From Lentzea tibetensis (GTDB lineage: Bacteria > Actinomycetota > Actinomycetes > Mycobacteriales > Pseudonocardiaceae), in NCBI RefSeq assembly GCF_007845675.1, contig NZ_VOBR01000003.1, positions 62,001-126,000 of the forward strand: a stretch of 64,000 nt of DNA. Direction: 5' to 3'. The translations under genes and the position numbers were made by a program. This document shows, in pieces, positions 43,202-46,980 of the stretch; positions within the stretch are counted from its first letter, which is position 1, and the number at the start of each line of letters is the position of its first letter. The notes below the pieces were generated by a model, which had not been told where the DNA came from, made no database searches, and saw only the letters and a program-made list of their open reading frames with translations.

Positions 43202-44485
43202 ATGACGGGGGTCCGCAAGGCGGCAGTGGCGAGCTCGGTGGGGAACGCGGTTGAGCTGTACGACTTCCTGCTCTACGGCACGGCGTCCGCCCTGGTGTTC
43301 GACAAGATCTTCTTTCCGCAGTTCGACAGCCGCGTCGGCGTGCTGCTGGCGTTCCTGACGTTCGGCGCCGGCTTCTTCGCGCGCCCGCTGGGCGGCGTGG
43401 TGATCGGCCACTTCGGCGACCGCGTCGGGCGGCGCACCATGCTCGTGATCACGCTCTCCGCGACCGGGCTCGCGACGGCGTTGATCGGCGTGCTGCCGAC
43501 CTACGCGTCGGCGGGCATCGCGGCGCCGCTCATGCTGGTGGCGCTGCGCGTGCTGCAGGGCTTCTTCATGGGCGGTGAACAGGGCGGCGCGTCGCTGATG
43601 GCGGTCGAGCACGCCCCGCCGGGCCGCCGGGGCTGGTACGGCAGCTGGGTGTTCATCGGCTCGCCGGTCGGCCTGATCCTGGCGAACGTCGCGATGTTCC
43701 TGGCGACCAGGTGGTCCGGCCCGGACTTCCTCGTGTGGGGCTGGCGGATCCCGTTCCTGTTCAGCATCGTGCTGGTCGGCATCGGCCTGTACGTGCGGCT
43801 GCGCGTCGACGAGAGCCCGCTGTTCGAACGCGAGGAGGCGGTGAAGCTGCCGGTCGCGCGGGTGCTGCGGGAGTCGTGGCGGCGGGTGCTGCTCGCGGCG
43901 GGCGTGAACTTCGGCTTCCAGATCTTCATCTTCGTGCTGTCGGCGTGGCTGATCTCCTACGGGCGCAGGGAGTTGAGCGTTCCCGCGAACACGATGCTGA
44001 TGGCCACGGTCATCGGCTCGCTGGGGCAGGCGCTGACCGTGCCGCTGTTCGCGCGGCTGTCCGACCGGATCGGCAGGCTGCCGGTGATGCTCGGCGGGGC
44101 GATCTTCATCGGCGTGTTCGCGTTCCCGATGTTCTGGCTGCTGGACGCGCGGTACGTCGTGCTCGCGATGGTGCTCGGCTTCGTCGGTTCCGGCGCGTTG
44201 TTCGGGCCGACCGCCGCCTACTACGCCGAGCTGTTCGCCACGCGCGTGCGGTACACCGGCGTGGCGCTGAGCTACCAGCTCGGCGCGGTGCTGGGCGGCG
44301 GGCTGTCGCCGTTCGTCGCGCAGTGGCTGCTCGGGTTCAAGCTCGGCGCGTGGCCCATCGCCGTGTACCTGATCTTCGGTGCCGCGGTGAGCGTCGCGTG
44401 CCTGCTCACGATCGGGTCAACGCACGAGGTGGAGCCTGCGCGTGGCGAGTCCGATCGTCAGCCGTTGACCCCAGCCGAGGCGTAG
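43202..44485 (+). CDS. MFS transporter, metabolite:H+ symporter (MHS) family
   Basis: The protein has 427 residues with 12 hydrophobic segments. The MHS signatures are the first helix with [26 protein letters not shown] in the 2-3 loop, and [22 protein letters not shown]. The family imports organic acids such as proline, betaine, shikimate or alpha-ketoglutarate with protons, and the exact substrate is not readable. ATG 43202 begins ahead of helix 1. The 3' end overlaps the convergent NAD-kinase-like gene by 69 bp. Confidence 0.92.
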
Positions 44486-45262
44486 CGCGTCGGACTCGAT
44501 GCCGTCGCCGAACGCGACGAGGCCGTCGGACTCGACGTCGATGCCGAGCGGGTCGCCGAGTTCGCCCTCGGTGCGGGTGACGCCGGTGCCCGGTGACGGC
44601 CACGCCTCGCGGACGAACCACACGAGCCTGCGTTCGGTCGGGGTGGGGAGTGCGATCTCGCTGTGCCGTTCGCGGTGCACCGAGCTGCACCAGCCGGTCG
44701 CGCCCGTGCCGGTGCCGATCAGGACGCCGCTGGACGCCTGGCGTTCGTCGGCGATGCGGTAGCGGGCGGTCTGGTGCGTCGGGTGGCCGACGTAGATCTC
44801 GTTGAGCGCCAACAGGGTCTGGCCGTCGTCGGTGCGCGCCTCGACCATGGTGCGCTCCTCGACCTCCCTGCTGTGCAGCAGCGAGCGGGCGTCCTCGGGG
44901 GAGTGCCGGGCGAGCACTCCCCGTTCCGGGTTGATGCCGATGACGGGCTGGCCGTCGAGGTACTTCGCGACGTTCGCGACCAGCCCGTCCTGGCCGACGA
45001 TCACAACGACGTCCTCCGGTGCGAACAGGAACCGGCTGAGGTCGTCGCGTTCGACTACGCCGCGGCGCCAGTCCATCGGGATGGCGGCTTCGACGACCCT
45101 GCGCGCGTGCCTGGCCTGGTGATCACGGTGCTCCACTTCCTCGAGGCTGCGGTCCCGCGACCGCAGGAAGAACTCGACCTGTCCTCTGGTGCCGTGCCTG
45201 GCGAGCAGGTCCGTCAGCTCGGTCCTGCGGTGCACCAGCACGATCCGCGGTGCGAGTGTCAT
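44417..45262 (-). CDS. NAD-kinase-like protein
   Basis: The protein has 281 residues. It keeps the landmarks of the ATP-NAD kinase fold in altered form: VGQDG (90-93, where active enzymes have GGDG; the Asp is kept), ALNEIYVGH (N154-E155, the NE motif), and [11 protein letters not shown] in place of the diphosphate loop. It is shorter and more diverged than housekeeping NadK. It may phosphorylate, bind or sense NAD(H). ATG 45262 overlaps the SPFH stop (ATGA), so the two proteins are made together, behind an operator next to a Nudix/NrtR-like gene. Confidence 0.8.
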
Positions 45263-46218
45263 GACGTCAGCTTGTTCACCAGCGACGTCACCACGTCCGG
45301 CGTGATCGTGATGCTGCTGATGTCCGGCACGTTCTTGGCGAACTCCTGCGCGGCCAGCCCGAAGAGGACCTTCTCCGGCAGGTCGCGGTAGGCGTCGAGA
45401 CGCGCAGCCTCACCGGCGGCCTCGGCCTCGGCGAGCTTGCGGATGCCCTCGGCCTTGGCGTCGTGCGCGATGCGTGCGGCGTTCGCGTTGTCCTGCGCGG
45501 TCTTCAGCGCGTTGGCGCCGCGCTGGACGACCAGCTGCTCCTCGCGCCTGGCCAGCTCGATCTGGTTCTGCAGCTCGTTCTCGCTGATCGAACGCTCCCG
45601 CTCGACGGCCATGGCCCGGCGCTCGTAGGTGGCCTTGTCCGCGTCCTGCTGCACCTTCTCGCGCACGGTCGTCTGCAGCGCCTTCTCCATGTCCGCGTCC
45701 GGCCTGATCGCGACGACGCGGACGTCGATCACGCGCAGCCCCGTCTCCTCGAAGCGCGGGTCGCCCGCCATGCCCGCGGTGACGGTCTGCTTGACCGTCT
45801 CGACGCCGTCGATCAGCGCGGTCTCCAGCGTGGTCTTGGTGAGCAACTGGAGCGCGTGCTGCTGCGTGCTCTCCGTCAGCAGGCCCGCGACCTGGTTCAA
45901 CGGGTCGCCGCGCCAGTCGCCCTCGTCCGGGTCGATCGAGAAGTCGATGCGCGCGGCCGCCGTGTCCGGGTCGGTGAAGCGGTAGGTGACGGTGAGCTGG
46001 ACCGTGACGTCCTGAAAGTCCTTCGTCCGCGCGTGGAACAGCATCGGCAGCTCGCGGTCGTCGACCGGGATCTCGCTCAGCACCGCCGTGCGCGGGCGGA
46101 ACCAGAAGCTCAGGCCCGTTCCCTCGTGGACGACCTTGCCGTTGCGCACGTGTCTCACGTGGACCGTCGGTGCTCCTCTGAGGTGCCGCAGTCCGGGGTA
46201 GCCGCTGATGTCCGCCAT
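45259..46218 (-). CDS. SPFH/Band-7 domain protein
   Basis: The protein has 319 residues. The SPFH domain occupies about 20-190. It is followed by a charged coiled coil (about 195-280) rich in Glu, Arg, Ala and Gln with [29 protein letters not shown] repeats, and a short C-terminal domain. No N-terminal transmembrane helix is seen, so membrane contact would be peripheral. Stomatin-like proteins form ring scaffolds that organise membrane enzymes. ATG 46218 has AAGGAG 7 bases upstream, and that RBS touches the edge of the 21-bp palindrome. Confidence 0.87.
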
Positions 46219-46228
46219 CGATCTCTCC

Positions 46229-46249
46229 TTATCGTCAGTCTGACGATAA
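46229..46249. promoter_or_regulatory. Perfect 21-bp palindrome between Nudix and SPFH genes
   Basis: Arms TTATCGTCAG and CTGACGATAA are exact reverse complements around a single T. The site lies 10 bases before the SPFH start and 16 before the Nudix start, so one bound protein could close both promoters. NrtR-type regulators bind palindromes of this size next to their own gene. Confidence 0.75.
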
Positions 46250-46265
46250 CACTACGATGGGTCCC

Positions 46266-46943
46266 ATGTACCGGCCAAGTGATTTCCCTCCCTTCGCGGT
46301 CACGGTCGACCTCGTCGTGCTGACGCTGCGGTCCGACGAGCTGTGCGCGCTGCTCGTCCGGCGCGGCGAGGCACCGCACAAGGGCAGGTGGGCGCTGCCG
46401 GGCGGGTTCGTGCGGGAGGACGAGTCGCTGGACGCGGCGGCCGCGCGGGAGCTGGCCGAGGAGACCGGGCTGGACCGCGTCCACTTGGAACAGTTGGGCA
46501 GCTACGGCGACCCGCGCCGCGACCCGCGGATGAGGGTCGTCAGCGTCGCCTACCTGGCCTTGGCGCCCGATCTGCCGGTGCCGGTGGCCGGTACGGACGC
46601 CTCCGAGGCGCGCTGGTCACCCGTGGACACGGCGGGCAAGCTCGCGTTCGACCACGGCCGGATCCTGGCCGACGGGGTGGAGCGGGCGCGGTCCAAGCTG
46701 GAGTACACGCCGCTCGGCACGGCGTTCTGCGCGCCGGACTTCACGGTCGCCGAGCTGCGCCGCGTCTATGAACTGGTGTGGGGCACGGCGCTGGACGCGC
46801 GCAACTTCCACCGCAAGGTCACCGGCGTACCGGGCCTGTTGGAACCGACAGGTGAGACCACCACGCGGGACGGCGGCCGCCCGGCACAGCTCTACCGCCG
46901 AGGCCCAGCCGCGACTCTCCACCCACCCCTGGTCAGGTCGTGA
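46266..46943 (+). CDS. Nudix-domain protein, NrtR-like regulator or ADP-ribose hydrolase
   Basis: The protein has 225 residues. The Nudix box is intact: G47-x5-E53-x7-R61-E62-L63-x-E65-E66-x-G68-L69. After it comes the NrtR-type C-terminal winged helix (FTVAELRRVYELVWGTALDARNFHRKVT). NrtR repressors use a Nudix domain to sense ADP-ribose-like NAD products. Regulators often have a broken box, so this one could also be catalytic. An ATG at 46257 would add three residues. The promoter and operator lie just upstream, and translation may be nearly leaderless. It is divergent from the SPFH and NAD-kinase-like operon, which makes that operon its likely target. Confidence 0.88.
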   Translation: MYRPSDFPPFAVTVDLVVLTLRSDELCALLVRRGEAPHKGRWALPGGFVREDESLDAAAARELAEETGLDRVHLEQLGSYGDPRRDPRMRVVSVAYLALAPDLPVPVAGTDASEARWSPVDTAGKLAFDHGRILADGVERARSKLEYTPLGTAFCAPDFTVAELRRVYELVWGTALDARNFHRKVTGVPGLLEPTGETTTRDGGRPAQLYRRGPAATLHPPLVRS

Positions 46944-46980
46944 GTGATTGGGAGCGCTATAGCACTCCCAATCACTCACG
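46939..46980. terminator. Bidirectional terminator overlapping the Nudix stop
   Basis: Perfect 16-bp arms (46939-46954 and 46965-46980) surround a 10-base loop that contains the palindrome GCTATAGC. The left arm includes the Nudix stop codon, and the right arm ends 4 bases before the convergent oxidoreductase gene. Confidence 0.8.

Follow-up and report, generated by a model that had tools for sequence, protein, structure and literature searches.

Regulators of the NrtR family sense an ADP-ribose-type breakdown product of nicotinamide adenine dinucleotide (NAD). They combine a Nudix domain with an NrtR winged helix (Shewanella NrtR, 3gz5/3gz6; MsNrtR of M. smegmatis) and have NAD synthesis genes as targets, with a palindrome between the regulator gene and the neighbouring operon. 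For many bacterial SPFH proteins, which serve as scaffolds, no cargo is known to us. In MsNrtR the Nudix motif is altered (RQUXEKXDU); hydrolase activity was not detected, and ADP-ribose frees the protein from DNA (PMC6800001). Kinases of the NADK2/NADK3 type are treated as eukaryotic organelle enzymes in a review (PMC8553519). Here we describe a locus of Lentzea tibetensis in a window of 64,000 nucleotides (contig NZ_VOBR01000003.1, positions 62,001 to 126,000), the whole stretch of DNA that was analysed. At this locus a gene for an NrtR-like Nudix regulator faces an operon consisting of an SPFH/Band_7 gene and a gene for a NADK2-type kinase homologue (kin) across a perfect palindrome, TTATCGTCAGTCTGACGATAA. 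The same architecture of regulator, palindrome and operon is thus combined with SPFH and kinase genes instead of NAD synthesis genes. In the open-licence literature we found no description of a trio of an NrtR-type regulator, an SPFH protein and a NAD kinase. Our preferred reading, to which we give a probability of roughly 0.55, is that a repressor sensing an ADP-ribose-type nucleotide would control itself and an SPFH-associated NADK2-type NAD(H) kinase.

A conserved trio of genes

In named genomes 452 relatives were confirmed by tblastn, and the best 80 were kept as named loci. The SPFH gene lay immediately upstream of the kinase gene in all 80 of them and a divergent Nudix gene was present in 74. 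In Lentzea the SPFH stop and the kinase start share the letters ATGA, an overlap of four bases that was also found in 70 of the 80 loci; starts were chosen by script, and the remaining ten loci may include wrong starts. The first-pass annotation had placed the three genes correctly, had recognised the ATGA co-translation overlap and had proposed that the genes form one unit and would be neighbours in related genomes, all of which agrees with the conserved order and overlap. Sequence comparison further indicates that the trio is a real unit and more widespread than had been stated.

The kinase was present in 33 of 100 relatives searched. In all 30 loci fetched from these, 21 of which duplicate loci among the 80, SPFH and Nudix genes adjoined the kinase gene and the gap contained a box related to the palindrome (read by eye). 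Searches by phylum, class and handle gave 39 loci with SPFH next to the kinase in 38; as eight of them duplicate named loci, this amounts to 30 of 31 new ones, and the single miss starts at a contig end. No conserved fourth gene was found: in the 38 loci used of the 80, drawn from 30 genera or groups and some with short flanks, no family other than SPFH, Nudix and kinase recurred in at least five groups over a distance of about 8 kb. A fourth gene could be missed here, because the open reading frame (ORF) filter was lossy: of the 30 groups, it picked up SPFH in 29, Nudix in 24 and kin in 22.

Within the class, 65 of 394 genomes gave a kinase hit (E<=1e-40), and within the own phylum 12 of 396 did so (E below 1e-100); in the phylum to which a Chloroflexi-titled locus belongs there were 3 in 201 (E<=1e-20), one of them being the seed. 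The kinase also occurred in 64 plasmid records, or 69 with a Rhizobium query, 42 of these from Rhizobium. Ten plasmid records were opened and the trio was found in six of them, namely two from Rhizobium and one each from Methylomonas, Providencia, Moraxella and Cupriavidus (unannotated there), so that the trio extends over several phyla and takes in alpha-, beta- and gamma-proteobacteria, sampled through the plasmid collection, and also tractable hosts. For Roseomonas, Streptomyces yangpuensis and Treponema the part of the record that was read contained SPFH and kinase genes and gave no match for Nudix, and on plasmid pAST2 the kinase gene adjoins a shorter upstream frame. A deep relative (L193) has Nudix, SPFH and kinase genes in the same direction, with GPDG in place of the kinase motif GQDG and a broken kinase frame near the contig end.

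On the Moraxella plasmid (L236, 5001-7862) and on pAST2 (L238, 5001-7862) the kinase gene directly adjoins tetR(H)-tet(H), and C-terminal kinase fragments were seen on small plasmids of Pasteurella, Actinobacillus, Mannheimia and others. Perhaps these plasmid copies and fragments are carried along with the tet(H) resistance region. In another locus (L233) an annotated VWA gene lies just upstream of the SPFH-kinase pair.

The box and its likely regulator

The regulator consists of a Nudix domain (NUDIX PF00293, 82.1 bits) followed by a winged helix (NrtR_WHD PF21906, 54.9 bits). Its best PDB profile match was Shewanella NrtR (3gz5, E 4.3e-47), which supports the proposed NrtR-like nature of the protein; other solved relatives were AraR (5bs6), the Nudix protein 2fml and the winged-helix region of NadQ (7q91). 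The Nudix motif G-x5-E-x7-RE-x2-EE-x-G was complete in 23 of 26 alignment rows, with L098, L193 and the nadA-linked L128 as exceptions. Because the motif is complete in our protein, in contrast to MsNrtR, the Nudix protein could sense and also hydrolyse its ligand. Relatives elsewhere adjoin nadA or pncA/pncB-like genes.

The palindrome has the form TTATCGTC-N5-GACGATAA. A search for palindromes with arms of at least 10 and spacers of 0-3 gave three entries at two sites of the window, compared with 0-4 entries (mean 1.4) in each of 20 first-order Markov re-samples of the same 64 kb. As the count lay within the range of the re-samples, the palindrome was dropped as evidence on its own, and its significance comes from its place and conservation. 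Of the 74 named loci in which the Nudix gene is a neighbour, 73 had the strict pattern CGTC-N3..5-GACG upstream of SPFH, which bears out the expectation that the palindrome would be conserved; the sole exception, L104, has degenerate boxes that the strict pattern missed. With a looser pattern two boxes were found in 52 of the 80 loci, with a spacing of 34 bp in 42 of them and of 33 bp in another 8.

Loci in which the regulator gene is displaced or missing are informative on the pairing of box and protein. In seven genomes of genus g66 (probably Streptomyces) the SPFH-kin pair is separated from the Nudix gene, and a box was found both before SPFH (7/7) and before the Nudix orthologue of 73-77% identity (7/7), the second boxes of L189 and L190 having been read by eye. 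A Nudix gene next to SPFH-kin is missing from six of the 80 named loci (four of Nocardia, L103 and L107). All four Nocardia loci (L051-L054) carry TTAT-[GA]GTC-N5-GAC upstream of SPFH, as a perfect palindrome in L051, with the CGTC..GACG core changed. The Nocardia genomes have no close orthologue of the regulator, the best matches being at 39-40% and, in L128 and L130, a nadA-linked gene; no substitute regulator stood out among the nearby ORFs listed. An initial view that the box was lost in Nocardia was wrong, since the same frame is present in 4/4 with the outer core letters altered. With both places boxed in the split genomes and the core changed in Nocardia, the palindrome tracks the Nudix gene.

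The regulator also follows the kinase across genomes. Of the 100 relatives, 30 of the 33 kinase-positive genomes and 0 of the 67 kinase-negative ones had a close Nudix match (E<=1e-93, a threshold chosen after the list was seen); outside the genus the counts were 7/10 and 0/65, and two congeneric genomes without the kinase were also without a close Nudix match. Because the genomes are related, the Fisher values of 1.9e-22 and 6e-08 are too small and should not be taken literally. Judged by sequence comparison, the Nudix protein of the locus very probably regulates through this box, and its regulation of the operon is well supported.

A wide regulon was not found in the Lentzea genome, where the 21-mer pattern gave one exact match and 13 others with three mismatches each (reversed control: 2), of which the one beside a Nudix paralogue was followed up. 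Likewise, the idea of one box for all phyla was abandoned: GTC-N5-GAC was kept in Moraxella and Providencia (three each) and was not found in the gaps of Rhizobium, Cupriavidus and Methylomonas, which contain other palindromes or repeats. In G482, where the adjacent Nudix gene is at 38-42%, only TTTTGGTC-AGTAC-GACGACAA is present.

One of the 13 three-mismatch matches adjoins a Nudix paralogue on another contig of the same genome (L226; G000:C55). This paralogue, 61% identical to the regulator (5793-6485, minus strand; neighbour 4894-5709, minus strand), precedes a gene with a nucleoside-phosphorylase-type domain and a TPR-like gene (by reading), and two sequences of box-related form, TTATTGTCGAGATGACAACAA and ATGTCGTAATGACACT, lie between it and its neighbour. 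Similar pairs of Nudix and PNP-like genes were seen in L127 and L218. In L139 (1489-3578) and L197 (4135-6224), which represent the same place, a gene for a flotillin-like SPFH protein (448 aa) is closely followed by another regulator relative, which is a second, separate link of this regulator type to SPFH. Regulator relatives in L126 (2229-3125) and L133 (3303-3746) adjoin, or lie about 1 kb from, a VWA-like gene (VLFDVTGSM, by eye). A second perfect palindrome of the window, TCAGGTTTGCATTGCAAACCTGA (37261-37283), is located between two minus-strand genes, of which one reads as a UbiB/ABC1-like kinase and the other as a membrane protein.

The kinase, its SPFH partner and competing readings

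The kinase homologue fell below the cut-off of Pfam NAD_kinase PF01513 (19.4 versus 25.5 bits), and its best match by profile (E 3.6e-20) and by fold, N-terminal region included, was human NADK2 (C5orf33; related to Arabidopsis NADK3), with 21% identity in the structural alignment. By this ranking of profiles and folds, human mitochondrial NADK2 is apparently the nearest to the kinase among solved structures, with ordinary NAD kinases further away. Its signature comprises GQDGLVAN (residues 90-97), N154-E155, S177-S178-G179, G185-x-G187-x3-W191 and D253-G254. It shares SSG-x5-G-x-G-x3-W with NADK2, reading SSGLNLCTGTGSKAW, and differs from it in that its gene shares a bacterial operon with SPFH, controlled by a Nudix regulator. 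The ordinary PpnK/NadK enzymes have the same fold, with the GxDG and NE-type positions aligned, but our kinase is without their GGDG and TPTGSTAY. Two alignments were compared, one of 26 rows (A1) and one of 13 rows from four phyla, as titled (A4). GQDGL was invariant in both (26/26 and 13/13), as were the SSG-x5-G-x-G-x3-W positions. The first-pass annotation had rightly read GQDG in place of GGDG; its view of a diverged NAD kinase did not stand, as invariance rules out decay of an ordinary NAD kinase and GQDGL is a fixed signature of a NADK2-like clade. The NAD theme it had suggested is likely in view of the best matches of regulator and kinase.

The SPFH protein has a clear SPFH domain (Band_7, 59.1 bits), and in the predicted model the SPFH beta domains are followed by a helix of about 104 residues. 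SPFH domains and a long helix after them are also features of HflK/HflC, prohibitin, erlin, flotillin, stomatin and major vault protein. The protein described here differs in being paired genetically with a kinase instead of a protease or NfeD, and its sequence contains no transmembrane segment at the N-terminus and no hydrophobic stretch (highest 19-residue Kyte-Doolittle mean 0.84). The sequence gives no support to the membrane-associated module proposed earlier; attachment through acylation or amphipathic contact might still occur. Family and linkage suggest that it may serve as a scaffold.

Under our preferred reading the Nudix protein would act as a repressor rather than an activator. Bound to the box, it would keep its own gene and the divergent SPFH-kin operon off until a nucleotide from NAD breakdown, most likely ADP-ribose, entered the Nudix pocket and the repressor left the DNA; by hydrolysing its own ligand it may reset the switch. 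The operon would then yield the NADK2-type kinase, most likely a NAD(H) kinase, and would raise the supply of NAD phosphate, NADP(H), under NAD consumption or redox stress. The SPFH protein would assemble into a ring or cage that holds, stabilises or tunes the kinase.

Several observations weigh against this reading. The NCBIfam NrtR equivalog NF050029 gave 137.8 bits with a cut-off of 400, and the box of mycobacterial NrtR is GTTTTCGA-N7-TCGAAAAC and not that seen here. Three of the 33 kinase-positive relatives have no close regulator. Nocardia and G315 retain SPFH-kin without one; in G315 no box was found and the best Nudix match is at 46%, and three further congeneric loci are without a box. 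L103 and L107 retain the box with no adjacent regulator, and the three and two Nudix copies in their genomes (64-68%) adjoin other genes, a box-like sequence standing before the start only in L127. As these copies may be paralogues, L103 and L107 decide nothing on the match of box and regulator; we slightly lowered our confidence in that match because of these doubtful copies and the frame retained in Nocardia. The genome also encodes two ordinary NADKs besides. The active-site letters differ from those of the ordinary NADK 2an1 (GQDG for GGDG; SSG and G-x-G-x3-W for SDG and TPTGSTAY) and partly from those of NADK2, which has GGDGT where the kinase clade has GQDGL, so that NAD need not be the substrate. 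We put the chances for NAD(H) as the substrate at about even.

An alternative that is possible, if on the improbable side, keeps the same regulon and lets the kinase act on another nucleotide (ADP-ribose, an ADP-ribosyl derivative or a nucleoside), by which it would detoxify the sensed ligand or signal with it. The two ordinary NADKs would fit such a role, and so would the invariance of the clade's active-site signature in 13 of 13 rows, the annotation of the kinase as 'sugar kinase' in some records, and the regulator paralogues next to ADP-ribosylglycohydrolase-like, pncA/pncB-like and nadA genes (names by sequence reading), whereas the nearest solved enzyme, NADK2, acts on NAD+ and, in preliminary data, on NADH.

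For the defence role that had been considered plausible, no direct evidence was found. We regard as unlikely a stress or conflict (anti-phage) module that answers NAD depletion and whose kinase alters the NAD pool. The patchy spread among the class and phylum genomes together with plasmid carriage would be expected of such a module; the regulator paralogue of the same genome precedes a conflict-type PNP-like/TPR-like pair with a related box (by reading), and it has been proposed that regulators with a Nudix domain sense ADP-ribose in systems of this kind (PMC9503650). Yet there is no PADLOC family for SPFH or the kinase, the Nudix protein matches PDC-S07 weakly (E 4.7e-06), no fourth family recurred in five or more groups around the 38 loci and none of 50,697 phage records gave a match. 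In a further reading the kinase fold would have no catalytic role and would serve an SPFH assembly as a sensor subunit that binds NAD(P)(H). This would agree with the changed GGDG and TPTGSTAY motifs and the near-absolute SPFH linkage and is very unlikely; the invariance of the GQDG aspartate, the NE/ND asparagine and the DG of the C-terminal region over the 13 A4 rows favours a working active site.

In its genetics the bacterial NADK2-type enzyme is thus almost inseparable from SPFH, its likely switch is a protein of the NrtR type, and it gives meaning to records labelled 'sugar kinase' or 'hypothetical protein'. It raises the questions of the SPFH cargo, of the substrate of the NADK2-type clade in bacteria and of a link between NAD breakdown and NADP(H) supply. 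A wider proposal, which we consider rather doubtful, is that of a portable 'NADP(H)-making cage' of several phyla, in which a soluble vault- or prohibitin-like SPFH assembly would carry the NADK2-type kinase under a repressor that senses and hydrolyses ADP-ribose, the kinase being a bacterial relative of the source of animal mitochondrial NADK2.

Layout of the locus

Features of the locus, in positions of the window
Feature	Position	Strand	Details
NADK2-type kinase homologue (kin)	44417..45262	-	281 aa
SPFH/Band_7 gene	45259..46218	-	319 aa
Operator-like palindrome TTATCGTCAG-T-CTGACGATAA	46229..46249	.	sequence reading and pattern searches
Putative promoter of the Nudix gene	46229..46258	+	TTATCG (46229-46234), 18-base spacer, TACGAT (46253-46258)
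NrtR-like Nudix regulator gene	46266..46943	+	225 aa from ATG 46266; 228 aa from ATG 46257
15-bp perfect inverted repeat, 10-base loop	46940..46979	.	fold z -6.1; probable terminator

The gap between the SPFH start and the longest Nudix frame measures 38 bases, most of it occupied by the palindrome. As had been described, the palindrome is perfect and lies 10 bases from the SPFH start codon; the distance of 16 bases given for the Nudix gene holds only for the start at 46266, that to the upstream ATG being 7 bases. The start at 46266 is the more likely one from the sequence, because the upstream ATG overlaps the -10-like TACGAT and because many orthologue alignments start at residue 4, the second Met. 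TTATCG and TACGAT with the spacer between them form a plausible promoter of the Nudix gene, whose -35-like element lies within the palindrome together with the greater part of the spacer. A -10-like TAnnnT followed a box in 25 of 30 intergenic regions (TATACT in 15, TATGCT in 5, others in 5). The inverted repeat downstream of the Nudix gene is probably a two-way terminator between this gene and a convergent oxidoreductase gene. At the other end of the locus, kin and a convergent frame for an MFS transporter (43166-44485) share 69 bases at their 3' ends (44417-44485).

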